Below the pieces are notes generated by a model. It was not told where the DNA came from. It made no database searches and was given only the letters and a program-made list of their open reading frames with translations. This document shows positions 1 through 62,021 of a DNA stretch of 63,143 nucleotides, piece by piece. The DNA is from a virus: positions 1 to 63,143 of IMG/VR virus record IMGVR_UViG_3300005549_000012; one strand, 5' to 3'. Position 1 is the first letter of the stretch. Every line of letters starts with the position of its first letter. The position numbers were made by a program, and so were the translations under genes.

Positions 1-428
1 ATAAGATAAACTTCAGGATTAAGGATGGTCACATTCAACTCCAACCAAAGCGGGATAATCGAGCTACAGGGCAGGTTAGGCGAGGCATGAAGAATGTCAA
101 GTAACCCAGACCGCGAACCCCGGCACTCCAGCTACGTCTGCCCCCCGGACGATACCTCGGAAGCCTACCGCTTGGGCTGGGTAGCGGAGGCTACCTCAGA
201 AGGACTTGCTTATCTAAACACCCAGCCGGGCTTCAACCAACTCGACCGTGCTATCGACATCATCTCAGGCCAACTCAACGAGCAGCTACCGGGCAACACC
301 GCTGCTGGCGGCGCTATGTCCAAGATCAGAGCTAACATTGTCAAGAGAGCCTTGAACGAGCAGATCAGCGTTCTCACCGATCTTCGGGACTTCTGGATGT
401 TTGAAACCAGCGACAAGACCCGCTGGGA
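1..428. repeat. Left copy of inexact terminal repeat
   Basis: Bases 1-428 align without gaps to 62716-63143. Positions 1-113 are identical. From 114 to about 360 there are roughly 29 substitutions by my count, and the last ~68 bases are identical again. Inside the portal reading frame almost all changes are synonymous; only residues 10 (Arg/Gln) and 12 (Ser/Thr) differ. This fits a circular or circularly permuted genome whose assembly closed through two coexisting portal alleles. A true partial tandem duplication is the less likely alternative. Confidence 0.9.
3..104 (+). CDS. 3' end of small Cys-rich phage protein (cut by window start)
   Basis: This is the C-terminal 33 codons of the gene that is complete at 62625-62819; the overlapping nucleotides are identical. 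The stop codon overlaps the portal start (ATG at 94), as in the right-end copy. It is broken only because the linear window starts inside it. Confidence 0.85.
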   Translation, partial: KINFRIKDGHIQLQPKRDNRATGQVRRGMKNVK

Positions 429-2136
429 ACATCAGACCACGATTCTCAACAATCTCACCAACGATTGGTATCACAATACGTTCGTTGATCTCTCTATAAA
501 GGAGGCTTTGCAATATGCAGCCGCTCTCGGCAAGGGTTATCTCAGTCCCTTCTGGAAATCCAACGCAAGACGTAGAGGAGTTGGAGACATTGCTCTCCAA
601 AGCTATGGGGCTAGAGACGTTCTACCTATCCAGCTACCGAGCAACCACAACCTCCAAGAAGCCTACGCCGTCATCATTAAAGACGAACTGCCCATCACCG
701 TAGCTTGGAGACAGTGGCCTCATCTACAACATCGCATTACCCCTGATCGAGACTTGCCGACAACCGCCAGCGATAGGGGCCAGTCTATCTGGGCCAAGAC
801 AGGCCGGACTCTAATGGATCTCATTGGCTCCCCCAAGAACCGGGAAGACGAAGAAACACCGTTTCCAACCGTTGATGTCAACTATATCTACATCGATGAT
901 TTCTCGATAAACACTTCTGGGATGACCCGGCCTATGGGCCAACCGGGGACTTCCTTCTACTACGAAGTACCTTCGCTCGGCAGTGATATTCCTGCTGGGC
1001 ATACGACCACCAACCAGACTACCTATCGTAAAGCTGAGCGATCTGATTGCCAGCTTTACCCCAACCGTCGCCTGATAATCTGCACCAAGACCTGTATCAT
1101 CTACGATGGTCCTTCTTATTGGTGGCACGGCCAAGTCCCCCTTGTCAGCTTCTCTATGGACGAGTGGGTCTGGAACTACCTCGGCTTCTCTCTGGTTCTC
1201 GAAGTCGCCTCCATTAGCGATAGCTTCAACGAGCATCTTAGGAACATAGATGACAGTGCTTCCGTTCGGCTCAACCCGCCGATGCTCTGGGATAAGAACG
1301 CTATCGCGGCTACGGACGCTGATAGGTTCAACACACGTCGCCCTGGCATGAAGATGCGTTATGACAACTTCAAGAACGAGAACCCGATTAAGTTTCCTGT
1401 TGCTCCTCAGCAGTACGACGTTCCGCCTTGGATCATCTCTGAATACGTTCCCTTTCTGAAGAACCTCATCGGTGATCTACTAGGTGTGCCTGATCTCAAG
1501 TCTCTCGCCAAAGCCAAACAAGTCCCCGGTGGTGATGCAATCGAGAAGCTGATGGAGATGGCTGGTCCAATCGTTCGTGGAATGTCTCGCTCTATGGAAC
1601 GCTCGCTACGCGGTCTTGGTCAGCAGGTAGGCCCAATGTTCTTCCAGTTCTACGATACTCAGCGGAGAATCTGGGTCATGGGCCAAGACGGGATAACCGA
1701 GCAGGACTATGACTTCGATCCCGGTTCAATCATCCCGGCCAACGAGCAGGGCTTCGTTCAAACCCGGATGGAGCGGGCTAGAACGCATATGCACAATTTC
1801 AACTTCAGGATAACCCCTGGTTCATTACATCAGCTTAATCAGACCTCTAGGAAGTTGCTGTATCTACAGCTCATGCGCTCAGGTTTTCCAATCGATCCTG
1901 AAACCGTTTCAACCGCTCTCGACATCCCGAACTGGGGCCACCTGCAAGGCAACACCGTTCTCGAGAAGTGGGGCCAGTGGAAAGACCTTGAGGCTACGAT
2001 TGCAGATCAGATGGCCCAAGCCGCGCAGGGTGCCGGTCAAGGCAAAGGCGGCGGTCGTAAACCGTCGTCGCAATCTCTCCCTCGCATACAATCAAAAGAT
2101 GGAGGGCAGAGAACGACTATTAGTGAGAGCAAATGA
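94..2136 (+). CDS. Portal protein
   Basis: The 680-residue product is read as the portal, the dodecameric ring at one capsid vertex through which DNA is packaged and ejected. The basis is its position straight after the large terminase (through the circular closure) and before scaffold and capsid genes, its size (podovirus portals are typically 500-750 residues), and an aromatic, Arg-rich middle followed by a helical region around residues 450-520 that fits a portal stem. The start ATG overlaps the stop of the preceding gene. The C terminus is a low-complexity Gly/Gln/Lys tail ending RTTISESK, which is repeated at the end of the following endonuclease gene. The stop overlaps that gene's ATG. 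A second N-terminal allele lies at 62809-63143. I cannot assign a portal subfamily. Confidence 0.8.
   Translation: MSSNPDREPRHSSYVCPPDDTSEAYRLGWVAEATSEGLAYLNTQPGFNQLDRAIDIISGQLNEQLPGNTAAGGAMSKIRANIVKRALNEQISVLTDLRDFWMFETSDKTRWEHQTTILNNLTNDWYHNTFVDLSIKEALQYAAALGKGYLSPFWKSNARRRGVGDIALQSYGARDVLPIQLPSNHNLQEAYAVIIKDELPITVAWRQWPHLQHRITPDRDLPTTASDRGQSIWAKTGRTLMDLIGSPKNREDEETPFPTVDVNYIYIDDFSINTSGMTRPMGQPGTSFYYEVPSLGSDIPAGHTTTNQTTYRKAERSDCQLYPNRRLIICTKTCIIYDGPSYWWHGQVPLVSFSMDEWVWNYLGFSLVLEVASISDSFNEHLRNIDDSASVRLNPPMLWDKNAIAATDADRFNTRRPGMKMRYDNFKNENPIKFPVAPQQYDVPPWIISEYVPFLKNLIGDLLGVPDLKSLAKAKQVPGGDAIEKLMEMAGPIVRGMSRSMERSLRGLGQQVGPMFFQFYDTQRRIWVMGQDGITEQDYDFDPGSIIPANEQGFVQTRMERARTHMHNFNFRITPGSLHQLNQTSRKLLYLQLMRSGFPIDPETVSTALDIPNWGHLQGNTVLEKWGQWKDLEATIADQMAQAAQGAGQGKGGGRKPSSQSLPRIQSKDGGQRTTISESK
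2110..2136 (+). repeat. Portal C-terminal tail, copy 1 (recoded)
   Basis: Nine codons (RTTISESK plus stop) match 3027-3053 exactly at protein level. The first seven codons all differ in DNA (AGA/CGT, ACG/ACT, ACT/ACG, ATT/ATC, AGT/AGC, GAG/GAA, AGC/AGT); only the Lys and stop codons are the same. Both copies end in AAATGA, whose ATG starts the next gene. Confidence 0.9.
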
Positions 2137-3053
2137 TGCCGAAGCCTGTATATATTTATACATTGGTTGACCCTCGTAATAGTGAGGTTCGATACGTTGG
2201 AATAACCTCTCATCTTGCTCGTAGGATGAGAGAACATCTCAAGAAATCTCATTATACACGTTCTCATAGAGCCCATTGGATACGGGGGCTCCTCCGGTCA
2301 GACTTGAAGCCTATAATGCGGGTTATGCTGGTTGCAGAGATGGTAGATGGCCCTGAGTATGAACGCCAGGTGATTCGGTATATGCTGAACGACGGGATAA
2401 GGCTGCTCAACAAAACCATAGGTGGAGACGGTCAGATACTACAGGAGTACCGGGATGCCATAGGACGGGCTGCTAAAAAGCGCTGGGAAAATCCAGCATA
2501 CAGAAAGTGGATGCTGGAACAGTCTCGGAAAGGGGCTGCTGCTACCCGTGAAATAAGAAAGCGTATTCCAGACCCTCGTAAAGGAACTAAATTATCTGAT
2601 GCCCATAAGATGAGGGTTAGCGAAGGGGTGCGCCGTGCTATGACCCCAGAGTATCGGGCTAAGATGAGTGCCGTAAAGAGGGGCAAGTTGATGTATGCTC
2701 AAACTGCTGAGTCTAAGGCCAATATAGCTGTGGGGGTGAAAGCATATTTCTCCAACAATCCCAAGGCCAAAGTTCATCTTCGTGTAAAGACCCTTCAACA
2801 ATTTGCTGACCCAGTAGCTAGGGCGTATCACAAGAAGGCGTGTGAGAAATGGGCAGCTTCAAGAGAGAAGCCCGTAGTTTGTGCCAAGGGACATGATTTA
2901 GCCACCCATAAGTATGTAAGGCCAAGCGGCAGGTTAGAGTGTAGATTGTGTAGCGCTATTACCTTTCGCTTATGGAGGGCATCACACCTAAGGCCCAGCC
3001 GTGCCAAAGTACAGAACGAAGGTGATCGTACTACGATCAGCGAAAGTAAATGA
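2133..3053 (+). CDS. GIY-YIG homing endonuclease with NUMOD3-like repeats
   Basis: The 306-residue protein has an N-terminal GIY-YIG nuclease domain: YIY at residues 7-9, YVG at 21-23, followed by the basic LARRMREH helix, a PEYERQ segment with the expected glutamate, and LLNKTIGG with the conserved Asn. Downstream are repeated NUMOD3-like DNA-binding modules (LSDAHKMRVSEGV near residue 155, TAESKANIAVGV near 195) and a C-terminal CxxC pair (C.KGHDLATHK...CRLC). Base composition is more AT-rich than the flanking structural genes, a sign of transfer. Its ATG overlaps the portal stop, and its last eight residues reproduce the portal C terminus. Free-standing HENs spread by cutting element-free alleles; the target is presumably the 3' end of portal. 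Confidence 0.9.
   Translation: MMPKPVYIYTLVDPRNSEVRYVGITSHLARRMREHLKKSHYTRSHRAHWIRGLLRSDLKPIMRVMLVAEMVDGPEYERQVIRYMLNDGIRLLNKTIGGDGQILQEYRDAIGRAAKKRWENPAYRKWMLEQSRKGAAATREIRKRIPDPRKGTKLSDAHKMRVSEGVRRAMTPEYRAKMSAVKRGKLMYAQTAESKANIAVGVKAYFSNNPKAKVHLRVKTLQQFADPVARAYHKKACEKWAASREKPVVCAKGHDLATHKYVRPSGRLECRLCSAITFRLWRASHLRPSRAKVQNEGDRTTISESK
3027..3053 (+). repeat. Portal C-terminal tail, copy 2
   Basis: Second copy of the RTTISESK-stop segment, forming the last codons of the GIY-YIG gene and overlapping the ATG of the next gene (3050). This is probably the ancestral portal end displaced by insertion. Confidence 0.85.
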
Positions 3054-3274
3054 GCCAACCAACCCCCCGCCTCCGAAAGCAACCCTGCATCGAGCGCACC
3101 CGAGCGTTTGAGCAAACCAGCTATCGCGGTGATCCCCACGAGATCATCGACTACCTTCTGAACCTCCGCGAAAACGGCACCATCCACATCCATGTCAACC
3201 AAGGGGTAGCGGTCATAACCGAGTGGGACCACAACCACCAGCGCAATAAACCTGTTGACACTAATCCTGTTTAG
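3050..3274 (+). CDS. Small hypothetical protein (74 aa)
   Basis: I do not recognise it. It is a polar 74-residue protein with a hydrophobic central strand (IHIHVNQGVAVITEW). Its ATG overlaps the endonuclease stop in the motif AAATGA, exactly as the endonuclease ATG overlaps the portal stop. It therefore probably followed portal directly before the insertion and is translated by coupling. Confidence 0.65.
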   Translation: MSQPTPRLRKQPCIERTRAFEQTSYRGDPHEIIDYLLNLRENGTIHIHVNQGVAVITEWDHNHQRNKPVDTNPV

Positions 3275-3330
3275 CTGTACCGTCAGCTTGTAGTTGCATA
3301 AGTAGCTTCCCGGTCCGACGTTAGAAAACG

Positions 3331-3361
3331 AGGCCACTGACCATCCGGTTGGTGGCCTTTT
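3331..3361 (+). terminator. Putative intrinsic terminator / attenuator
   Basis: A 7-bp stem (AGGCCAC, 3331-3337, with GTGGCCT, 3352-3358) closes a 14-nt loop and runs into TTTT. It ends six bases before the next ATG, so it may only attenuate transcription of capsid genes. Confidence 0.55.
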
Positions 3362-3366
3362 GCCGT

Positions 3367-3582
3367 ATGCCGTGGTCATCTACAGATGCGAAACGTCACA
3401 CTCGCAAAGCCAAGTCATCAAAACAACGCCGTCAATGGGCACATGTTGCTAACAGTGTGCTCAGGCGTACTGGTGGCGAAGGCCGAGCCGTCGCTGCTGC
3501 GAACTCAGTCTTAAAGAAAGGAGGCAAACCAATGGATCGTCAGAACCGACGCAAAAAGGGTCGAAAGGGCAAACGCCGCTAG
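3367..3582 (+). CDS. Small basic phage protein near portal (71 aa)
   Basis: The 71-residue product resembles a small protein often found near phage portal genes, with the pattern K.KRRQWAHVANSVL followed by G.G.A...AN.VLK. Its function is unknown. The C-terminal 15 residues are almost all Lys/Arg/Gly. I chose ATG 3367 because upstream in-frame codons lie inside the terminator hairpin. No good Shine-Dalgarno is visible. Confidence 0.65.
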   Translation: MPWSSTDAKRHTRKAKSSKQRRQWAHVANSVLRRTGGEGRAVAAANSVLKKGGKPMDRQNRRKKGRKGKRR

Positions 3583-4412: not shown

Positions 4413-5270
4413 ATGCCGACTAAGAAGTATACGAAGGAAGAACTCGAATCGTGGGTCAATTCTATGGGACTGCCCGACGATAAGAAAGCAACCCTGCTCT
4501 CAGCCCTCGGAGACGAAGCCGTGCTGGGTCATGTTGGTGAATCAATCCTGATGCGCCAAGACTACGACCGCAGCTACGGTGAGTTGACCCGAGAGCGGGA
4601 GAATCTGCAATCGAAGCAGCAGGAAGTTCTCGACATGGAGAAGCAGCTTGTCGAGTGGCGAGATGAGAACAATCCGAAGTTCTCTCAGGCTCTCGAAGAA
4701 AGCGAAAGGTTGAAGAAGGAGTTGAAGACCTTGACGGATGCCTATATTGGAAAGGGTGGCTCTGTTTCAGAACTGTCAACCGGCACGCCACCGCCGCCTG
4801 CCAAGCCCGACGACAAGCCTCCCTTCGACACATCCAGCTTCGTCAGCAAAGACGATCTCTCCAAGGTCGTCCCTGCGCTGACCCAGTGGCCGGTTCAGTT
4901 CCAACGCATTGCCCAAGAGCACTTCAAGCTAACCGGCGAATACCCCGATGGCGAGAAGATTCTTGCAGAGGTCTACAAGGGCAAATCTGCTCAGCAAGCA
5001 TGGGAAGATACTCATGGTATCCCAGCCATCCGAGCGCAGAAACAGCAGGAGCATTTCGAGGCCGAACTGAAAGCAGCCCGAGAAGACGAACGAGCAAAAG
5101 TCATGACCGAAATGGCCGTTGATCCCGCAGCCCGCAGAGACAACGCCACCGGCAGCTTCAGCTCAGCCCTTGCCCTCGCCAACGAAGACCCCTCGGCAGC
5201 AGTCGTTGCCGACCAGAACTCAAGAGCAAAAGCAGCAAAGCTCCTTGAGGGCTTCGATCCCCGGTTGTAG
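4413..5270 (+). CDS. Putative capsid scaffolding protein
   Basis: The 285-residue protein sits directly before the major capsid gene and has a scaffold-like build: a helical N terminus, a coiled coil around residues 50-110 (ELTRERENLQSKQQEVLDME), a Pro-rich linker near 125-135 (TPPPPAKPDDKPP) and an Ala/charged helical C terminus. Scaffolds guide procapsid assembly and then leave or are degraded; no protease gene is evident nearby. A good AGGAGG site precedes ATG 4413. Confidence 0.7.
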   Translation: MPTKKYTKEELESWVNSMGLPDDKKATLLSALGDEAVLGHVGESILMRQDYDRSYGELTRERENLQSKQQEVLDMEKQLVEWRDENNPKFSQALEESERLKKELKTLTDAYIGKGGSVSELSTGTPPPPAKPDDKPPFDTSSFVSKDDLSKVVPALTQWPVQFQRIAQEHFKLTGEYPDGEKILAEVYKGKSAQQAWEDTHGIPAIRAQKQQEHFEAELKAAREDERAKVMTEMAVDPAARRDNATGSFSSALALANEDPSAAVVADQNSRAKAAKLLEGFDPRL

Positions 5271-5322
5271 CAGCGGGTACGCAAACTAACGGCGCACAAG
5301 CGCCTCTGATTGGAGAACAACC

Positions 5323-6456
5323 ATGCCAGGCTTTTCAGAGCTAACAGCAGTGACGCTTGCGGAGATTTGGCCCCGGAAACTCAGGGACAACTTCTTCCGA
5401 ACGGCACCGTTTCTAGCGTACCTCCGACGCAACCGATTGAAGTCCTACCCCGGTGGGGCTTTCATGCAGCAACCCGGCTTGTATGCTCCGCTGAAAGGCG
5501 GCGCCTACGCGCAAGGGGATACATTCAACCTTGCCAAGCCCCAGACGATCGACGCCACGGCGTTTGATCCGAAATACTACTACGTCAACGTTACCGAGTA
5601 CCTTGAGGAAATCGGTACTCAGGCCAAAGGGCCGATGAACGTTGTCAACCTTGTTGAAGCTCACTTGGACAACTCGATGAAGACGCTCAACGCTATCCTG
5701 AACATCGCGTTGTGGCGTCACGGCCAAGGCTCTGCTTCAACGATCACCGACAACAGAGTCACCCAGATCAACGGGATGTCGGAAGCCCTCAACAACGGCG
5801 TTGACAACTCATGGGATGGCAACGTTTTCCCGACCTACGGAACCAAGACCCGAGGCAGCGGCGTTGTTGGAACCGGCCTGAACTCAGTTCCCAAGTGGTT
5901 CGGCGACACTGCCGGCAACACCGGCACGATCACCTACAACAACCTGCTTGAGATGTATACCGCAGCGGGTCAGCGTGGGGTGTTCCCTGATCTCGGGATC
6001 TCGAACGCCGCTGTCTGGAACTTCATGCTCGAACGCATCCAGCCTCAGCAGAGGTTCATGGAACTCGGAACTGATCCGGTGTTCTGGGGAGCGCAGGCCA
6101 TCAAGCTGATGACTGTTTCGTTCCTCGTTGACGCCTACGCACCGTCAGCAATCTACGGAATCAACGACCCCGATCTGGGGAACTATCTGACCTCTACCTT
6201 CACGTCGGTTGCCTCGCCAACTGCTGCGAGCGGTCTGCCCAGCTCAACCACCGTCACGGTAGGCGAAGTTCTAGCCCTCCTGAACACTCAGCAATGGGAC
6301 TTCAGGATGAGCGACAACCCGCTCTACCAGTTCGGCTGGACCGGCTTCAAGGTCGCCCAGAATTCAACGATGGTCGCAGGCCAATCACTTGCGGCTGCTA
6401 ACTTCACTTGCGGGTCGCCTTGGGGCAGTAACGTCGCCTACGGCATCGGCTCGTAA
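5323..6456 (+). CDS. Major capsid protein (HK97-type fold likely)
   Basis: The 377-residue product is the best major capsid candidate: right size, directly after the scaffold, followed by decoration-type genes. The sequence starts with a Leu/Phe-rich helix (ELTAVTLAEIWPRKLRDNFF) and has many small and aromatic residues, including YYVNVTEYLEEIG near residue 85 that fits a capsid spine/P-domain. GGAGAA precedes the ATG. Identification rests on context and composition. Confidence 0.75.
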   Translation: MPGFSELTAVTLAEIWPRKLRDNFFRTAPFLAYLRRNRLKSYPGGAFMQQPGLYAPLKGGAYAQGDTFNLAKPQTIDATAFDPKYYYVNVTEYLEEIGTQAKGPMNVVNLVEAHLDNSMKTLNAILNIALWRHGQGSASTITDNRVTQINGMSEALNNGVDNSWDGNVFPTYGTKTRGSGVVGTGLNSVPKWFGDTAGNTGTITYNNLLEMYTAAGQRGVFPDLGISNAAVWNFMLERIQPQQRFMELGTDPVFWGAQAIKLMTVSFLVDAYAPSAIYGINDPDLGNYLTSTFTSVASPTAASGLPSSTTVTVGEVLALLNTQQWDFRMSDNPLYQFGWTGFKVAQNSTMVAGQSLAAANFTCGSPWGSNVAYGIGS

Positions 6457-59807: not shown

Positions 59808-62021
59808 ATGTATTCTCCTATTGTCACAAAGCAAACCTTAGATAGACTCCAATCCAAGCTGGACTTCCCCTTAGTCCGGCGCTCCGTTGCTGAGTCAGAA
59901 TTCTACGTCAACTACTTCGACTCTTTCCTCGACCGGGACACAGGTGAACTCCCGGCTGACTTCCGTTTCAGCCAACCCGAAATGGACTACATTCGCAGCG
60001 AGCGGGTTCTCTGCAAGTATGACTTTCGTTACTGGCTGGAACGCTATGTCAAGATCAAGTCTACCTTGCTCAGTGATACCGAGTTTATCGTTCGCCCCCG
60101 GATGACGGTTGCATGGAAAATGGTTCTCGATGTATGGGCTGAACTGGAAGAACGTGGTTCTGCAATAATGATGCAGCAGCTCAAGGCTCGGCAGCTTGGG
60201 GTTTCGACTCTGACTGAGCTTGCTATAGCGCATCGGGTTCAGTTCTATAGCAACATCAACGCTCTTATCTGTTCATCGACGCCCCAGAAAACCGAGAAGA
60301 TGAGTGGCTGGATAACGCTCTGCTATGAGCTTGAACCTTACTGGTTGATGCCTATCATGAAAGGCCCATATGAATCAGGGGAAATACTGCTTGAGTTTCC
60401 TGAACTGAACAGTGCCATAACGATGCAGCATGGTGCAAAAATGACGGGCATTGCTCGGGGGGAAACTCCTGATCTTGTGCATGCCAGTGAGCTTCCTGAG
60501 TGGGTTGGAGATCCTAAAGAACTGATCGATGCTTCGTTGATGCCCTCAATCCACCCCAACCCGAGAACCTTCGTTATCCTCGAATCAACCGCTGCTGGAA
60601 TGCATGACTGGTGGCACCAGACTTGGGATATTTCGAGCGAGGGCTATGAGAAAGGAACATCGACATTCAGACCAATATTCCTGCCTTGGTTTATTGGCAC
60701 CGATGTCTGGCCAACGCAAACTTGGAAGAACGACCATCCTATCCCTGCTGACTGGACTCCGACTGCAAAGGGCTCTCAGCACGCAGAGCGGGCAAAGAAG
60801 TATGTAGCTACCAATGCTCTCATTAAGAAGTTCCTCGGTGACGATTGGGAAATGCCGCTGGATCAAACATGGTTCTGGGAATGCTACCGCTCCGAGATGG
60901 TTCGCAAGAAAGCGTTGAACCTTTTTCTACAAGAGATGCCCGCTGATCCGCTTGAAGCCTTCCAGACGACTAACCTAACCGTGTTCGACGTTGAAACTAT
61001 AGAGATGCTGAACGATCAGCGATCAGCACCGTGGGGCTGCTTCGGGATAGAGTCCAATCTATTACCTAGAAGATTATGGCCCGAGCGCCGGGACTTCGAC
61101 CTTAGCCGAAAGCCAATCGAGCTAACCTGGTTCACCGGCGAAGCAACGCTTCATTTCACCCTGCGCCCACTGACTTACGATGGTTATCCAAGCTGCCCCT
61201 GGGAGAACAGGGTGTTCATCTGGGAGCCCCCCTTGAAGGGGGCGAAGTACGGCGTCGGCGTCGATACCAGCTACGGCCTCGGCCAAGACCGCTCGACCAT
61301 CGAGGTAGTAAAGGAAGGCTCTATTATCAACCCTGCTGTTCAAGTCGCTGAGTTCGCCAATGCCTACGTCAACTCCATTGATCTAACCCCAATCTGCATG
61401 TGCATCAGTGCTTTCTACTCATCCTGCTACACGGATCAGATGGAGCAGCCGCTCGTTGCTATAGAGTGCGCCGGCAACGGCGAGACAACCCAGCTCGAAA
61501 TGCGTAAGCAGGGCTGGTCTAACTTCCATCGCTGGGAACGCTACGATAACATGAAGCGTACGAGGGTTCATAAGCTGGGTTGGTTCACAAATAGCTGGTC
61601 CCGGCCAATGCTGATAGATAGAACGAATCAGGCTATCAGGGATTGCAACTTCAAGATCAACTCACCGTGGTTGATTCAAGAGCTTAGAACCTTATCGAAG
61701 GATGAGTTCCAGCAGTCCATAAGGGCCGACACTGGGGGCCATGATGACCGCTACATGGGTGCAGGCATTGCTTTCTTCTGCCTCCACGTCTGGAAGTCCG
61801 TCGTCCAAGGCGACGAGGATGTCTTCTCGTCACAGGCCAGAGAGCAAGCAAAGAAGCAACTTGAAGACTGGGAATCTAGGTGGAAAGGCGGCGAGCATAT
61901 GTTTGACTTCAGCCTGCCCACGATGCAGCCGGTGGTAGAGCAGCAGCCGAATGATGAGGTCTACAGTGGGTTGGTGAAGACCCTCGATGATGATCCGCTG
62001 TGGGGGATGAGTCATGAATAA
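59808..62021 (+). CDS. terL: Terminase large subunit
   Basis: 737 residues. ATPase: deviant Walker A KARQLGVST (126-134) and Walker B-type DLVHASELPEW with catalytic Glu (~residue 228). Nuclease: GVDTSYGL (D486), IECAGNGETTQLEM and a final DDRYMGAG (D646). This is the packaging motor that translocates DNA through the portal and cuts concatemers. The C-terminal 60 residues are charged and probably contact the portal. The circularly permuted map hints at headful-type packaging. Confidence 0.9.
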   Translation: MYSPIVTKQTLDRLQSKLDFPLVRRSVAESEFYVNYFDSFLDRDTGELPADFRFSQPEMDYIRSERVLCKYDFRYWLERYVKIKSTLLSDTEFIVRPRMTVAWKMVLDVWAELEERGSAIMMQQLKARQLGVSTLTELAIAHRVQFYSNINALICSSTPQKTEKMSGWITLCYELEPYWLMPIMKGPYESGEILLEFPELNSAITMQHGAKMTGIARGETPDLVHASELPEWVGDPKELIDASLMPSIHPNPRTFVILESTAAGMHDWWHQTWDISSEGYEKGTSTFRPIFLPWFIGTDVWPTQTWKNDHPIPADWTPTAKGSQHAERAKKYVATNALIKKFLGDDWEMPLDQTWFWECYRSEMVRKKALNLFLQEMPADPLEAFQTTNLTVFDVETIEMLNDQRSAPWGCFGIESNLLPRRLWPERRDFDLSRKPIELTWFTGEATLHFTLRPLTYDGYPSCPWENRVFIWEPPLKGAKYGVGVDTSYGLGQDRSTIEVVKEGSIINPAVQVAEFANAYVNSIDLTPICMCISAFYSSCYTDQMEQPLVAIECAGNGETTQLEMRKQGWSNFHRWERYDNMKRTRVHKLGWFTNSWSRPMLIDRTNQAIRDCNFKINSPWLIQELRTLSKDEFQQSIRADTGGHDDRYMGAGIAFFCLHVWKSVVQGDEDVFSSQAREQAKKQLEDWESRWKGGEHMFDFSLPTMQPVVEQQPNDEVYSGLVKTLDDDPLWGMSHE

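Follow-up and report, generated by a model that had tools for sequence, protein, structure and literature searches.

A candidate homing cassette with a replacement portal gene end in an uncultured virus of bacteria

In IMG/VR record IMGVR_UViG_3300005549_000012, which derives from an uncultured bacterial virus, a block of foreign DNA lies between the body of the portal protein gene and the gene that follows; it consists of a divergent portal 3' end and a gene for a GIY-YIG homing-endonuclease-like protein (HEN) with an intact nuclease domain, whose own last codons are homologous to those of the portal gene. The stretch analysed, positions 1-63,143 of the record (63,143 nucleotides), is referred to here as the window. 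At a probability of roughly 55%, we read the block as an imported homing cassette, similar to the WHO elements of yeasts and the mORFs of fungal mitochondria, which would have come complete from a diverged relative. The features of the region are these:

94..2136, + strand: portal protein gene, 680 aa (PHROG 156 portal, E 4e-4; IMG/VR relatives 95-98%)
94..2058, + strand: native part of the portal gene (87-90% nucleotide identity to HEN-free relatives; blastn alignments stop at 2058 and 2063)
2059..2136, + strand: alternative 3' end of portal, imported and 25-26 codons long, forming the left part of the putative cassette (44-45% nucleotide divergence from relatives L002 and L004)
2133..3053, + strand: GIY-YIG homing-endonuclease-like gene (HEN), 306 aa (matches to Pfam GIY-YIG and PHROG homing endonucleases)
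2133..2417, + strand: GIY-YIG nuclease domain, HEN residues 1-95 (AlphaFold2 pLDDT about 86-96 over residues 1-90)
2991..3050, + strand: 20 codons, RPSRAKVQNEGDRTTISESK, probably left over from a portal 3' end and forming the in-frame C terminus of the HEN (certain for 3027-3050 only)
3023..3039, + strand: perfect 7-bp inverted repeat TGATCGT-ACT-ACGATCA within the HEN tail
3050..3274, + strand: next gene, 74 aa, native from codon 1; its start is the right edge of the putative cassette

The foreign block and its endonuclease gene

IMG/VR was scanned with the portal, the HEN, the next gene, the L006 portal, a degenerate tail pattern (see below) and alignments of the portal, the MCP and the GIY-YIG proteins, and these scans gave only five close-clade portal contigs plus the distant L016. 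Portal identity to the window is 97% for L002, 98% for L003, 95% for L004 and L005, and 72% for L006; the portal of L003, among the closest relatives, is cut off at residue 592, before the tail, and offers no tail comparison. No relatives were found among genome contigs or among plasmids, and among phages there were none by DNA and Tunturi_1 and Tunturi_2 alone by protein, the window portal being about 34.5-36% identical to the annotated portal of Tunturiibacter phage Tunturi_1 in protein comparison.

The portal body differs from those of L002 and L004 at 11-13% of bases up to a single change-point, which falls at window position 2058 in the comparison with L002 and at 2063 in that with L004, and 3' of which divergence is 44-45% up to the portal stop. 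The log-likelihood gain from this change-point is 24.3 and 21.7, respectively, whereas the best gain in a control comparison of L002 with L004 is 2.3. Given such a collapse of identity behind a body that is 87-90% identical, the portal 3' end must have been imported; it differs most at codons 656-672 (43-49% identity). On the other side the gene at 3050 is native, its first 60 nt being identical to L002 at 55 positions and to L004 at 56, and the change-point and this native gene together delimit a foreign block from about 2059 to the 3050 start codon. An earlier note on this DNA, made from the sequence alone, had proposed a mobile unit of a new recoded portal end plus the HEN ORF, leaving portal intact and coupling to the next gene in place; the change-point fits such a unit, portal is intact, and coupling to both neighbours is preserved.

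The HEN start codon (ATG at 2133) overlaps the portal stop (AAATGATG), and the ATG of the gene at 3050 overlaps the HEN stop in the same way (AAATGAGCC); from the former overlap, the HEN is predicted to be translationally coupled to portal. The portal stop lies at 2134-2136 and the HEN occupies a separate, overlapping frame, which rules out an intein, since the HEN does not lie in frame within one continuous ORF. A group I intron around the HEN was likewise rejected, as an Rfam search of positions 1900-3400 (E up to 1) gave no match.

By its match to Pfam PF01541 (29 bits against a cut-off of 22.6, E 1.4e-6) and its catalytic-type residues, the HEN belongs to the GIY-YIG nuclease family with its nuclease domain intact: Y9, Y21, G23, R31, E77 and N93 are kept in the family alignment, where Y9, Y21, R31, E77 and N93 are invariant. 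Matches to the PHROG homing endonuclease families are weak, as is that of a HEN-family profile to the DNA-binding domain of I-TevI (1i3j, E 0.09). The AlphaFold2 fold is confident over the first 90 residues and of low confidence over the last 60, the tail included, which is unstructured in the model. The HEN is probably a self-spreading DNA-cutting gene. The best homologue of its nuclease domain is a GIY-YIG/NUMOD3 gene (L034, 692-1426) which overlaps both its neighbours, by sequence look a thymidylate synthase-like ORF and a DNA polymerase III alpha-like ORF, and which carries no tail of either neighbour.

No HEN or GIY-YIG match was found in relatives G001-G006 and Tunturi_1 (seven records, some of them fragments), and on this comparison the HEN is a sporadic gene beside a conserved one, without counterpart in close relatives. 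The interval between portal and the 3050 homologue was read in L002, L004/L005, L006, L016 and Tunturi_1. It had been expected that HEN-free relatives would run from portal straight into the 3050 gene, but in none of those examined do the two adjoin; each has another small ORF between them, of 62 aa with two CxxC motifs in L002, of 56 aa (phrog_2864) in L004/L005, of 76 aa in L006 and of 24 aa in the distant L016. The ORFs of L002, L004, L006 and L016 differ and are mutually unrelated, mostly with overlapping start and stop codons, and the interval is, as these sequences indicate, a variable slot. None of the other slot ORFs ends in a portal tail; the L002 ORF (end ATCAGCGGATTATGAGCC) was considered as a portal relic and dropped, its tail scores being negative against all portal ends. 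In Tunturi_1 (L010), a distant relative in culture, an annotated HNH endonuclease gene follows portal at 5009-5605, an independent nuclease in the same place.

A tail shared by portal and endonuclease

The portal gene ends AGA ACG ACT ATT AGT GAG AGC AAA TGA and the HEN gene CGT ACT ACG ATC AGC GAA AGT AAA TGA, both reading RTTISESK-stop; the copies differ in seven of eight codons (8/24 nt), every difference being synonymous. This common tail, its recoding and the run-on of both copies into the next gene through AAATGA were the starting observation of the earlier note and are confirmed in the ORF sequences. Among 153,672 same-strand ORF pairs in the window, portal and HEN are the sole pair with 8/8 identical last residues and the runner-up has six in common, setting aside pairs that arise from the contig's own wrap-around, where the right end repeats the left. 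A degenerate DNA pattern for RTT[IV]SES[KR]-stop, with serines coded as AGY, had matches on just three IMG/VR contigs, in each case at the portal end of a relative. The ORF-pair count and the pattern search reject a chance origin, and the HEN tail is therefore homologous to portal.

With codons drawn at random among synonyms, two such tails differ in at least seven codons in 14-22% of draws; the observed count is thus what random synonymous change would give, and deliberate recoding was rejected. The tails look saturated at synonymous sites with the protein kept. The extreme C-terminal motif is conserved among portals out to Tunturi_1, which explains the same residues in two diverged ends. In the portal family it reads GR.P..Q..P....[K/Q]..G.R..[V/I].ES and follows a variable Gly-rich linker (A1 alignment columns 701-754). 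Close relatives read RTTVSESR, and both RTTISESK copies depart from this in the same way, with I for V and K for R, pointing to a common donor clade for the two ends.

The 12 HEN residues that precede RTTISESK (RPSRAKVQNEGD) align ungapped to the portal end of L006 (RPPRVVNKDQGS), with p = 1.6e-4 against all 12-mers of the window, or about 8e-4 corrected for five portals, and with p = 0.002 against the portal profile; two of the 12 are identical to the window portal. The homology probably extends to 20 codons on this alignment, of which the last eight alone, 24 bases, are certain. A survey of 35 further GIY-YIG loci in viral contigs and phage records found no gene that ends in the C terminus of its upstream neighbour; apparent neighbour-tail scores at two loci (L057 and L059) proved to be an artefact of mis-assigned ORFs.

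The inverted repeat at 3023-3039 ends about 10 bases upstream of the next start codon. A 7-bp repeat of this kind is present in 0.6% of random synonymous tails and the RNA fold has a z of -2.2; the repeat may act as a hairpin in the control of translation or may have arisen by chance.

Origin of the block

Which of the two portal ends is the older one in this lineage was addressed by comparison with L002 and L004. In the final 20 codons these relatives agree with the HEN copy at 28/60 and 27/60 nt, respectively, and with the portal copy at 36/60 nt each; mismatches in the final 27 nt number 8 and 12 for the HEN copy and 5 and 7 for the portal copy. Both ends are divergent, that of portal being the closer to the relatives, and the HEN copy is therefore not this lineage's recent native end. 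The earlier note had taken the downstream copy to be this phage's displaced old end, with 3027-3053 expected to lie closer than 2110-2136 to the portal 3' DNA of relatives; the reverse was found. The skeleton of its insertion model, a new portal end travelling as a unit with the HEN, stands, whereas the displaced-own-end prediction does not agree with the nucleotide comparison. There being few informative sites, this counts against that prediction without excluding all versions of it.

In the reading that we favour, the cassette (2059-3049) would comprise a replacement portal 3' end, the portal-coupled HEN, and a relic portal 3' end fused to the HEN. The HEN would cut portal in co-infecting relatives that lack the cassette, within the 3' part of the gene and probably around codons 656-672, and repair off the cassette-bearing genome would install the replacement end together with the HEN, such that portal, an essential gene, would stay whole and cease to be a HEN target. 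The portal end to the right of the ancestral insertion would remain behind the HEN as the relic, whose ancestral host would have been a cassette-free phage with a portal ending CGTACTACGATCAGCGAAAGTAAATGAGCC. The relic would not stem from this phage's lineage: both ends and the HEN would have come jointly from a diverged relative, imported by recombination within portal near 2058 and at the 3050 start codon. Since the cassette seemingly arrived with both ends attached, the fusion would have been made by a past insertion in the donor lineage. Cleavage, resistance and homing are argued here by analogy, and we infer the order of events, as the relatives retrieved include neither the donor phage nor a cassette-free sibling whose portal ends in RTTISESK. 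The fuller claim, that this is a phage unit bringing a cleavage-resistant replacement end for an essential gene, with no intron, intein or gene loss and with a portal-end relic as the C terminus of the enzyme, is put forward tentatively.

Given that the slot holds unrelated small ORFs in every relative, ordinary swapping of cargo could explain the import. The HEN would then be one more interchangeable slot ORF from a diverged relative, the portal end a passive flank, and the tail an old insertion accident, with no self-protection involved. The unrelated ORFs of L002, L004/L005, L006 and L016 and the HNH gene of Tunturi_1 speak for such exchange, and co-conversion of flanks is presented as normal for phage HEGs in part of a review (PMC2988022). 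However, the cargo of L002, L004 and L006 differs without any divergent portal tract (the L002-L004 gain being 2.3), the tract being confined to the HEN-bearing copy, and every other cargo ORF is without a portal tail at its end; we regard this explanation as rather unlikely.

The exact model of the earlier note, in which this phage's own portal gene was the insertion site and the HEN tail is the displaced original end, would account for the in-frame fusion, for the direct AAATGAGCC junction with the native 3050 gene and for the foreign upstream portal end. It is nevertheless improbable, as the HEN tail matches relatives at 27-28/60 nt against 36/60 for the portal copy while elsewhere in portal and in the adjoining gene identity to these relatives is 87-96%, and the model would be viable only with an earlier replacement of this lineage's portal end.

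That the portal C-terminal peptide is a selected tag, useful to the HEN for docking on a partner of portal, for example, or for packaging with the head, would suit the purely synonymous nature of all seven codon differences and the conservation of the motif among portals. Yet recent capture from a portal under selection gives the same identity without selection in the HEN, the preceding residues have diverged (2/12 identical to the window portal), and no neighbour's tail occurs at the 35 other GIY-YIG loci, and we give the idea very little credence. An assembly chimera of co-occurring strains, brought to mind by the right end of the contig (62715-63143), where the portal gene starts again in a second haplotype (93.5% identity to 1-428), is about as far-fetched, for the tails have about six consecutive common bases (AAATGA, by inspection), too few for joining by an assembler, and neither the HEN frame nor the ATGA overlap at either of its ends is disrupted. 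Even if the assembly had changed strains near 2058, the portal end, the HEN and its tail would lie on one continuous piece. These matching ends indicate at least two strains in the sample, and the genome, judged by them, is probably circular or permuted, of about 62.7 kb.

Comparison with known systems

The WHO elements of Torulaspora and Lachancea yeasts (Coughlan et al., 2020, eLife, PMC7282813) are units of an endonuclease and a resistance-conferring 3' end of the upstream gene, in which the previous end comes to lie beyond the endonuclease with each homing event (PMC7282813). As in the window, the endonuclease gene lies directly after its target gene, the unit holds a diverged target 3' end which keeps the target gene whole, and an older target 3' end lies beyond the endonuclease; here, eight codons of it are certain and about 20 probable, fused in frame. 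Rapid evolution of target 3' ends through replacement is a further common feature (PMC7282813). In contrast to the GIY-YIG protein considered here, WHO enzymes are intein-derived and HO-like with a zinc finger, and the ends left behind are untranslated FBA1 fragments of 400 bp rather than an 8-20-codon relic fused in frame. In the yeasts the target is a nuclear gene for which cleavage and allele-specific resistance have been demonstrated, both of which would apply here by analogy. The downstream end of a WHO element is the recipient's previous end, which is not so in this phage (27-28/60 versus 36/60 nt to relatives). Since its enzyme is GIY-YIG and not HO/VDE-like, the putative cassette is not a member of the WHO family, though it may work alike.

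The mORFs of fungal mitochondria (Allomyces atp6; Glomus atp6, atp9, cox2 and nad3; PMC3630166) share the order of inserted foreign C terminus, endonuclease ORF and second C terminus, and in the atp9 case a GIY-YIG enzyme, with ends that are similar in protein and diverged in DNA (PMC3630166). They differ in that their downstream end is clearly native (91-98% identity to relatives versus 64-81% for the inserted end; PMC3630166), whereas in this phage it is the downstream end that has diverged further. The arrangement is thus already known from yeast and fungal mitochondria, and in open-licence papers we could find no phage description of a cassette of this portal-end type.

Free-standing phage homing endonucleases are thought to be intergenic and to spread via co-conversion from a distant cut. 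A phage endonuclease moving together with a target-protecting sequence was reportedly described by Bonocora and colleagues in 2011, namely T4 mobA with the gene 60 bypass cassette, where protection is said to come from a 50-nt ribosome-bypassed insert and not, as proposed here, from a replacement gene end. As treated in part of a review (PMC2988022), the T4 seg and mob genes resemble the HEN in that GIY-YIG genes lie between essential phage genes, with a start that overlaps the upstream stop and with co-conversion of flanks. That part of the review describes no target-gene end fused to the enzyme for T4 free-standing HEGs, and in the cases of T4 mobA in 60/39 and Aeh1 mobE in nrdA the insertion splits the gene rather than restoring its end (PMC2988022).

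If the reading as an imported homing cassette is correct, it would add a third way, beside introns and inteins, of occupying a vital gene harmlessly; the strategy would have three separate origins, in yeast nuclei, in fungal mitochondria and in phages, and fast-changing 3' ends of conserved phage genes would be explained.

A further probable homing element was seen in the same clade: upstream of portal, the contig of L002 (L011, 28-2739) has a large ORF, probably terminase, with Hint and LAGLIDADG domains, a probable intein, and the window ORF seemingly in the same place (59808-62021) gave no Hint or LAGLIDADG match. Head genes of this phage clade seem, from these sequences, to attract homing elements.
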